Origin: Methanobrevibacter ruminantium M1
GTDB taxonomy: Archaea > Methanobacteriota > Methanobacteria > Methanobacteriales > Methanobacteriaceae
Assembly: GCF_000024185.1 (NCBI RefSeq)
Contig: NC_013790.1
Coordinates: 1,325,501 to 1,389,500 of the forward strand
Direction of reading: 5' to 3'
DNA: 64,000 bases
Shown: piece by piece, positions 29,453-30,561 of the stretch
Position numbering within the stretch: the first letter of the stretch is position 1
Layout: each line of letters starts with the position of its first letter
Notes under the pieces: generated by a model
What the model saw: only the letters and a program-made list of their open reading frames with translations
What the model was told of the DNA's origin: nothing
The model's database searches: none
Made by a program: the position numbers and the translations under genes

Positions 29453-29684
29453 TTTTATTTATTCTTCTTTTTTATTATATTTTTCTTCTTTTTTTTTAAA
29501 TAAATAATTATTCTTTTTTTTTAACGCTTTTTAGACTTTTTTCGAGATTCTTTTTGTGCTGTTTTTAAGATTTGGTGATAGTTTTCTTTTTAATGATGGG
29601 GCTATGCTTTTCTATAGACCGGTCTTTAGATGGTAATATAAAAAAAATAATATCTGATTATAGTAAGAAACTTGTTTAATTGTA
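29453..29684. other. Spacer with a 10-bp palindrome
   Basis: T-rich DNA after the HEAT gene, then the exact palindrome AGACCGGTCT (29616-29625), which stands out in this A/T-rich context and could bind a protein. A 28-codon frame from 29593 overlaps it but has no convincing ribosome site, so I do not call it a gene. Confidence 0.4.
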
Positions 29685-30120
29685 TTAAAAGGGTTTCAAA
29701 ATAAAATATTTGATGATAAAAAAAAAGGGTTTAATCATTATGTTAATTTTTATAAAAAAAGAGATTTAAAATAATTTTAAAACTTAAAGTAAGGATTCAA
29801 AAAGAACTCTTAACTTTAAATTTTCCAACATCCTAGGAGCTAATGAAATAACTCTAAGTAATGTTATATTTTTAGACTATATAATATTAACTGATTTAAT
29901 AAATAATTTTTCATTTATGAAAGGGGTTCAAAGATTATTATTTGGCTTTAAAAAGAGTTTAATACATTTTTATTAAAAAAGAGATTTAAAATAAGTTTAA
30001 AACTTAAAGTAAGGATTCAAAATGAATCCTTGGCTTTAAATTTTCTATCATCCTAGGAGTTAATGAAATAACTCTATGTAATATTATATGTTTAAAGTAT
30101 ATAATATTAACTGTTGAAGA
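29685..30120. repeat. Direct duplication of a ~220-bp hairpin-bearing element
   Basis: Two tandem copies (about 29685-29900 and 29915-30120, 220 bp apart) share most bases. Each has an AAAG...CTTT stem: copy 2 has the perfect inner stem AAGGATTCA-AAA-TGAATCCTT, and copy 1 has a G-T/A-C variant of it. A CATCCTAGGAG box and GAG(T/C)TA-ATGAAA-TAACTC follow, and both copies end in ATATAATATTAACTG. No frame is open. The retention of stems suggests an RNA or DNA-hairpin function. Confidence 0.7.
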
Positions 30121-30183: not shown

Positions 30184-30303
30184 TTATTTCATTAATAAAA
30201 TGAAGATTTTGAGGATTTCTAAAGAGTATTTTAGAATCTTTTCAGAGTTGTCTTTCAAGAATTCTAATGAATCTTTTAGAAGATCATTGTTTATATTTTT
30301 CAT
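30184..30303 (-). CDS. Possible 39-residue small protein
   Basis: ATG at 30303, preceded by GGAGG at exactly 6 nt, opens a frame that reads MKNINNDLLKDSLEFLKDNS and then EKILKYSLEILKIFILLMK. The first half is a charged amphipathic helix and the end is hydrophobic, so it may attach to a membrane. A/T-rich promoter-like DNA lies upstream and the duplicated hairpin element lies just downstream. No family is recognised. Small hydrophobic peptides beside structured RNA occur in type I toxin-antitoxin loci, but nothing here proves that. Confidence 0.5.
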   Translation of the reverse strand: MKNINNDLLKDSLEFLKDNSEKILKYSLEILKIFILLMK

Positions 30304-30428
30304 TTTTTTCCTCCATTTTCGGATGATAGATATTTTTTTGTAGCAGGAAAAAACTTCAATTAATAATTTATTTTTATCATTAATAAATATAATGGTTTTT
30401 TTGAGATAAATATTGATTTAAAAGTGTT

Positions 30429-30561
30429 AAATTGATTTAATAATGTTAAATTGATATCATTTCGTAAAATTGACTTCATTTGGTAAATTTTACTTGAAAG
30501 TGTAAAATTGATGTCATATCGTAAAATTGGTATTAAGATATGAAATTGATTTTAGGGTGAA
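30429..30561 (+). repeat. 19-bp repeat array C (7 units)
   Basis: AAATTGA-type units start at 30429, 30448, 30467, 30485, 30505, 30524 and 30543, i.e. 17-20 bp apart with 19 as the rule. Typical units are AAATTGATATCATTTCGTA and AAATTGATGTCATATCGTA. There are no spacers, so this is a tandem array and not CRISPR. It lies in the divergent spacer between the 39-residue ORF and the winged-helix gene. Confidence 0.85.

Follow-up and report, generated by a model that had tools for sequence, protein, structure and literature searches.

A type I toxin-antitoxin system consists of a peptide mRNA that is held down by an antisense RNA, and in the passages of PMC4147584 on the hok/sok system the hok mRNA is described as structured, so that it stays out of reach of both Sok and the ribosome until its 3' end is cut. 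The operational rule for type I loci in TADB 3.0 and TAfinder 2.0, as given in the relevant part of PMC10767807, places the two genes on opposite strands. According to the pertinent text of PMC12390103, a 2025 paper, type I systems were until then known from three bacterial phyla only, and the paper itself adds Cyanobacteria. We found no archaeal type I system, methanogens and Methanobrevibacter included, in the open-licence full-text literature on toxin-antitoxin, and none in the open-licence full-text literature on small or antisense RNAs in Methanobrevibacter.

The window, by which we mean the whole 64,000-nucleotide stretch of DNA analysed, carries on its minus strand a pair of genes that appears to work like a type I toxin-antitoxin system of the hok/sok kind, a likeness of working and not a claim of membership. 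As in the account of hok/sok in PMC4147584, a small peptide mRNA would be repressed by an antisense RNA, and whereas the long 5' UTR of hok carries a leader frame (mok) on which Sok acts, the archaeal segment covers the ribosome-binding site (RBS) itself. The archaeal locus further differs in that its RNA sits downstream of the peptide gene and on the strand of that gene, and in that we identified no counterpart of mok; we make no claim of a sequence relationship. The lock on the hok mRNA is a pairing between its 5' and 3' ends, and the hok-like feature of the archaeal locus is that its own 5'-3' mRNA pairing covaries. In the par locus of Enterococcus (Fst-RNA II) a stem-loop in the leader hides the fst RBS, repeats supply the RNA-RNA contacts and the two RNAs are convergent, whereas the archaeal peptide gene and RNA run in the same direction. 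As portrayed in parts of PMC4147584, tisB/IstR-1 and similar type I loci encode their RNA elsewhere than opposite the toxin gene, so that it has to reach an mRNA separate from it, as would be the case here; tisB and istR-1 are divergent, however, and IstR-1 binds far from the RBS, whereas the archaeal genes are in tandem and the pairing is at the RBS. A further comparison is with sRNA162 of Methanosarcina mazei, a methanogen small RNA whose single-stranded linker masks a predicted RBS; its target is a bicistronic mRNA with a transcription-factor gene, and the sections of PMC3510493 on this RNA describe neither a toxin-like peptide nor a cassette.

The explanation that we favour, and hold to be probably correct as a whole (peptide mRNA and antisense RNA, two locks, a type I-like role), is of a minus-strand cassette of two genes transcribed, we infer, separately. 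The first would be transcribed into a short mRNA encoding an amphipathic peptide of 39 aa. The second, directly downstream on the same strand, would yield a small RNA of ~100 nt that opens with a 5' hairpin, continues with an unpaired antisense segment and then a long hairpin, and closes with a T-rich end. By pairing with the mRNA just upstream of and over its Shine-Dalgarno (SD) sequence, this antisense segment would block translation of the peptide. As a second lock the mRNA would pair its 5' end with its 3' UTR, and the leader could also sequester the SD in the 39-aa class. The most likely role is that of a type I-like toxin-antitoxin pair, with a peptide that would be membrane-active and harmful unless repressed, a toxicity suggested by the likeness to known systems and by the distribution of the units.

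The small RNA belongs to a tandem repeat described in an earlier note on this DNA. Its two copies, 148 nt each and 90% identical, lie at 29746-29893 (copy 1) and 29966-30113 (copy 2) with the start-to-start spacing of 220 bp that the note had given, though the left edge it proposed, 29685, has to be moved to the right. Of the features that it listed, the outer stem (AAAG/CTTT), the CATCCTAGGAG box and the inner stem are all present, the inner stem being perfect in copy 2 and holding one G-U pair and one A-C mismatch in copy 1, and a GAGTTA..TAACTC hairpin claimed for both copies exists in copy 2 only, copy 1 reading GAGCTA..TAACTC on the plus strand. That small hairpin has 6 bp in both copies when folded as minus-strand RNA, the altered position of copy 1 being kept as a G-U pair; on the plus strand it becomes a C-A mismatch. 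Minus-strand fold energies are -27.1 kcal/mol for copy 2 (z -5.6) and -23.1 kcal/mol for copy 1 (z -3.4), and none of 200 dinucleotide shuffles folds as well as copy 2, nor any of 200 as well as copy 1. A plus-strand reading of the element was rejected, as the near-palindromic hairpins align either way and the opposite-strand pairing control (below) fixes the strand as minus. An identity with a known RNA family was likewise rejected: the window holds no Rfam match at gathering score and no tRNA or tmRNA, and the only matches in the region at E<=1, to two families of bacterial sRNAs, score far below the gathering thresholds of these families.

On the minus strand, copy 2 contains a putative small RNA with predicted ends at 29970..30080, supported by alignment, fold and pairing. 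It comprises the 5' hairpin (30057-30074), an anti-SD CTCC (30056-30059), the antisense segment GGATGATAGA (30044-30053), the long hairpin (29999-30043) and, after it, a T-rich stretch (29965-29990), and is preceded by a TATA-like element at 30097..30106 that may serve as its promoter; over 33 units the best match to TTTATATA averages 6.94/8 against 6.34/8 in shuffles, a signal that is weak alone. Copy 1 follows the same plan, as repeat search and fold agree, with a tandem, distal small RNA at 29750..29860 (minus), a hairpin at 29837-29854, a diverged antisense segment GGATGTTGGA at 29824-29833, a long hairpin at 29779-29823 and a TATA-like element at 29877-29886; it would have arisen by duplication of the RNA gene, its antisense segment having since drifted into mismatch with the neighbouring mRNA. 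To the left of copy 1 lies a short palindrome, TCTATAGACCGGTCTTTAGA, at 29611-29630.

The earlier note had stated that no frame is open here, which is right within the repeat, where no ORF of >=50 aa is listed, and wrong immediately beside it. What the note overlooked is a 39-aa ORF directly adjoining copy 2 on the same minus strand, with an RBS region complementary to the unpaired box between the hairpins. When relatives are aligned in a single orientation, conservation runs on to the right of copy 2 into these 39 codons, past a GGAGG before them and on into a 5' UTR and a TATA-like promoter. The ORF, MKNINNDLLKDSLEFLKDNSEKILKYSLEILKIFILLMK (30184..30303, minus; alignment and protein search), encodes an amphipathic peptide, a candidate either for a type I-like toxin or for a small membrane peptide under regulation. 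Upstream of it on the minus strand follow the SD GGAGG at 30310..30314, which can also pair with the leader segment TTTTTTCC; the putative antisense target TCTATCATCC at 30321..30330, which lies directly ahead of the SD within the 5' UTR and also stands out as part of an inverted-repeat pair in the window; the leader segment TTGAAG at 30354..30359, partner of a 3' UTR segment CTTCAA at 30114..30119; and a TATA-like element, TATATTTATTAAT, at 30379..30391, the presumed promoter of the peptide mRNA, its function and start site being predicted. The 33 aligned promoters of the family share an A-rich stretch and then TTtattaat ~25-30 nt ahead of a leader motif TTG(A/T)AGG.

A search of the genome's own DNA gave a third full-length relative (77%) and one shorter, and convincing DNA matches occurred in 8 same-genus genomes (own included) of 60 relatives searched, many of the weaker rows being AT-rich noise. 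A covariance model built from 11 RNAs was run against 138 genomes of the family and matched at E<=1 in 13, of which G001 and G079 were taken as chance; upstream of its matches a second peptide class of 25 aa came to light. Later profiles were made for these peptides, for a diverged 24-aa set from another genus and, jointly, for a search of 150 genomes of the order. At related loci, protein searches placed the ORF next to the RNA, and one ORF in the window's own genome (G000:C1:1115896) was first met by protein search alone, the RNA beside it being found afterwards. Altogether we count 33 units of peptide and RNA in 23 of the 138 family genomes, 10 from the genus of the window and 13 from one other, a count that rests on the rows inspected individually, among them a minority of the weak search rows; absence from other genera holds at the sensitivity of these searches, which may miss diverged members. 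Contigs with related units include ones of Methanobrevibacter sp. (goat jejunum) and M. olleyae, and a single genome can hold as many as five intact units, each with a code of its own. Two profiles were also run against viral contigs; no relative was confirmed and viral carriage was set aside.

Units were chosen by eye, and as their peptide, leader, 3' UTR and complementarity could all be seen during the choice, the sample is not blind; one set (g1) came from the RNA model and another (g5) from the peptide profiles, neither of which scores complementarity. Left out of the counts, again by eye, were two apparent chance matches in or next to coding sequence (L105, L106); a match at E 0.037 with no ORF seen (L112); reverse-strand or partial matches (L114, L115, L117, L119, L122, L123); RNAs without an intact adjacent ORF (copy 1/L094, L099, L101, L108, L111, L121); and loci where no leader or 3' UTR was seen (L162, L166, L168, L172, L185-L188).

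The peptides are of 24 (18 units), 25 (7), 39 (7) or 40 (1) residues and start with ATG (23), TTG (8) or GTG (2). Pairwise comparisons within three length classes, covering 27 of the then 30 ORFs, gave more synonymous than non-synonymous change (pS > pN) in 21/21, 21/21 and 74/78 pairs, the pattern of purifying selection and hence of constraint at the level of the protein. The 33 peptides have GRAVY values of 0.00 to 1.67 and a hydrophobic moment over the last 18 residues of 0.27-0.61, in keeping with the small hydrophobic or amphipathic peptides of type I systems; the window peptide, at 0.00, is the least hydrophobic, the 39-aa forms being less hydrophobic generally. For the five of the 33 peptides searched, neither Pfam nor NCBIfam returned a family at E<=1.

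RBS sequences differ from unit to unit, and each has a complement of its own that lies downstream of the unit's stop codon. RNAduplex energies were computed for all combinations of mRNA segments (45 nt plus the start codon) and downstream segments (nt 90-260 past the stop codon). Over the 33 units the mean is -24.85 kcal/mol for cognate against -13.78 kcal/mol (sd 3.20) for non-cognate pairs, and none of 100,000 permutations is as good, nor any when exchanges are made within genus groups only. The cognate RNA ranks first for 29/33 mRNAs and the cognate mRNA first for 25/33 RNAs; by rank the exceptions are L118 (11/33, with its own RNA at -16.8 and a sibling's at -17.5), L110 (2), L160 (2) and L182 (3). 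In the 7 genomes with several units, 16/17 mRNAs pair best with their own RNA, L118 again being the exception. The longest perfect complementary run averages 11.3 nt (7-17) for cognate pairs against 7.7 (maximum 14) for the others, and lies on the same strand 115-184 nt past the stop codon in 32/33 units. Along the mRNA, only the 30-nt windows that start at -40, -30 and -20 relative to the start codon show the pairing excess. Reversing the downstream strand abolishes the signal (-12.08 against -11.87, 30 units), and it is because this opposite-strand control is flat that we assign the small RNA to the minus strand. In the window unit the mRNA segment TCTATCATCC (30330-30321) faces the RNA segment GGATGATAGA (30053-30044), with the SD facing CTCC. 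The RNA complementary to toxin mRNA that characterises type I systems thus has its counterpart in these tests, and control by base pairing is strongly supported by the comparison of the units.

These results bear on what else the earlier note had proposed. Its RNA gene is borne out by relatives in the same genome and genus and by the pairing evidence, which fixes the strand as minus, whereas its other suggestion, a hairpin DNA site, found no support. Its CATCC box is the antisense segment, whose variation between units is our main evidence. The further copies with compensatory changes that it had called for do exist, the decisive changes being between RNA and mRNA and not inside the hairpins: in the consensus fold of the 11 RNAs just 1/19 pairs shows a change on both sides, and for that reason hairpin covariation was not used as evidence.

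The second pairing, between the 5' leader and the 3' UTR of the mRNA, is likewise specific to the unit, with means over 33 units of -18.13 (cognate) and -13.99 kcal/mol (non-cognate) and 0/100,000 permutations as good, also 0 within genus groups; in an earlier set of 30 units the values were -17.68 and -13.95, and 5/100,000 within-genus permutations were as good. Individual ranks are less clean (8/30 first, L175 last, the window unit 3/30), as is expected where units have the motif in common. The exchanges on the two sides covary: GAAGG/CCUUC gives way to GGAGG/CCUCC in L104 and to GUAGG/CCUAC in the second genus, and further pairs are UUAUC/GAUAA (L098), CUUGCC/GGCAAG (L100 and L102), GCCACCU/AGGUGGC (L163) and CCUCUUG/CAAGAGG (L174). 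The 5' end of the mRNA can thus pair with its 3' end in the manner of hok. The ORF with its conservation, both pairings with their covariation and the strand are properties that can be read in the DNA of the units. Sequestration of the SD by the leader is a third possible contact, for which permutations as good number 179/100,000 over all units, 25/20,000 in the 39-aa class and 11,931/20,000 in the 25-aa class; because the test gives the last class no support, we propose it for the 39-aa class only. In the window unit the local fold of SD and leader has -8.5 kcal/mol (z -1.1; 26/200 shuffles as good).

At three loci (the window, L130 and L155) the duplication covers the RNA gene only, the tandem RNA genes being spaced by 162 bp in L130 and 170 bp in L155 and the distal copy carrying a different antisense segment. 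Against the neighbouring mRNA the ORF-proximal RNAs of the window, L130 and L155 score -24.1, -26.0 and -22.5 kcal/mol and the distal ones -15.9, -9.9 and -16.0, so that by calculated pairing the distal copies, copy 1 of the window included, have lost their complementarity to it. A second target for copy 1 was sought in its own genome with a strict pattern and rejected, the three sites found being copy 1 itself, one in an open frame and one without a peptide unit. RNAs also occur where no intact ORF adjoins them: beside a decayed ORF at L099, at L101 and L111, and at L108 (G016:C60:11137-11273), where the RNA gene and 5' leader motif are kept and the ORF between them is missing, as after a deletion. 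The orphan L121 (G000:C1:988502-988634) is nearly identical to the RNA of L120, 2.4 kb off, and has the specificity of L120 (-29.5). L121 adjoins a 106-aa ORF of no assigned kind.

The window unit is flanked by what we read as a HEAT-repeat gene on one side and a winged-helix-like gene on the other. These two genes are adjacent in relatives, and in the window ~1.4 kb separates the stop of the HEAT gene from the start region of the next gene. Among 14 matched loci (own included), 10 have a spacer of 292-452 nt between the protein matches with no unit inside; the spacer of G011 (1214 nt) holds another gene and no unit, and that of G017 (929 nt) other short frames and no visible unit. No relative that can be read there has the cassette at this site, our own locus and G010 being unreadable in that cut. 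Upstream of the peptide-mRNA promoter runs a 19-bp-period array, TCAATTTWAC-N9 (30426..30473, minus). The pattern TCAATTTWAC-N9-TCAATTTWAC has 33 exact matches at 19 loci in G000, 3 of these loci being at our units, and none when read backward as a control. We rejected the array as a private operator of the units, since it also stands upstream of unrelated genes (prepilin-peptidase-like, nuclease-like and others, again by our own reading), and these arrays are perhaps the sites of a wider regulator. Below one of them, at L219 (G000:C1:1752400-1754100, minus strand), are two short ORFs (37 and 33 aa) that have SD-like sequences; the 33-aa product is strongly hydrophobic.

The alternative that deserves most weight accepts the same base-pairing control and takes the peptide to be no toxin but a harmless or useful small membrane peptide, for instance a stress or membrane regulator. 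Archaeal small RNAs that mask the RBS of ordinary genes are known, as the sRNA162 passages of PMC3510493 illustrate, and the ORF is conserved as a protein, which such a role would accommodate; but the patchy distribution, the several orthogonal copies per genome, the varied intergenic sites, the tandem and orphan RNAs and the lost ORFs are more readily explained by an addiction-type element than by a housekeeping regulator, and we consider the non-toxic peptide rather unlikely, if by no means negligible. Less probable again, and in our judgement doubtful, is an arrangement in cis with no separate small RNA, the antisense segment being the 3' part of the peptide mRNA folding back on its own RBS. 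The segment does lie on the same strand past the stop codon (115-184 nt from it in 32/33 units), the mRNA already has a 5'-3' fold-back, and the RNA gene has a weak TATA-like signal; yet the window, L130 and L155 have duplicated the RNA part only, and L121, L099, L101, L108 and L111 hold RNAs that no intact ORF adjoins. Such stand-alone RNAs favour an RNA gene in its own right.

Two further readings would deny the pairing any function. The unit could be a miniature mobile DNA element whose hairpins serve transposition, with the ORF and the pairings as by-products, and its presence in different intergenic regions and absence from the window's site in relatives would suit such an element; as the complementarity is found nowhere but in the RBS window and differs between units, and the ORF is under protein-level constraint, we regard this as very improbable. 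That the element is AT-rich chance or a decayed repeat without function is barely credible: the region is very AT-rich and the antisense segment of copy 1 has diverged, but 0/100,000 permutations, a z of -5.6 for the fold of copy 2 and units in 23 genomes speak against it.

Taken as a peptide mRNA with its antisense RNA, the cassette seems reasonably likely to represent an unrecognised archaeal family of type I toxin-antitoxin systems, with its genes in same-strand tandem, two covarying locks, orthogonal specificities within a genome, a spread by gain and loss in Methanobrevibacter and a second genus, and tandem or orphan antitoxins that keep or change their specificity. With both genes on one strand and a flat opposite-strand control, it falls outside the rule of TADB 3.0, and such cassettes would escape the corresponding searches because those demand opposite strands; a signature that can be searched for instead is a short ORF whose RBS is complementary to a sequence 115-184 nt past its stop codon. 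If the explanation is true, an archaeal family with two independently covarying RNA-RNA contacts would mean that control by peptide plus antisense RNA exists in archaea too, and genomes holding several units, each with its own code, would offer ready-made natural experiments on specificity. The host of this locus, M. ruminantium, is a main methane producer of the rumen.
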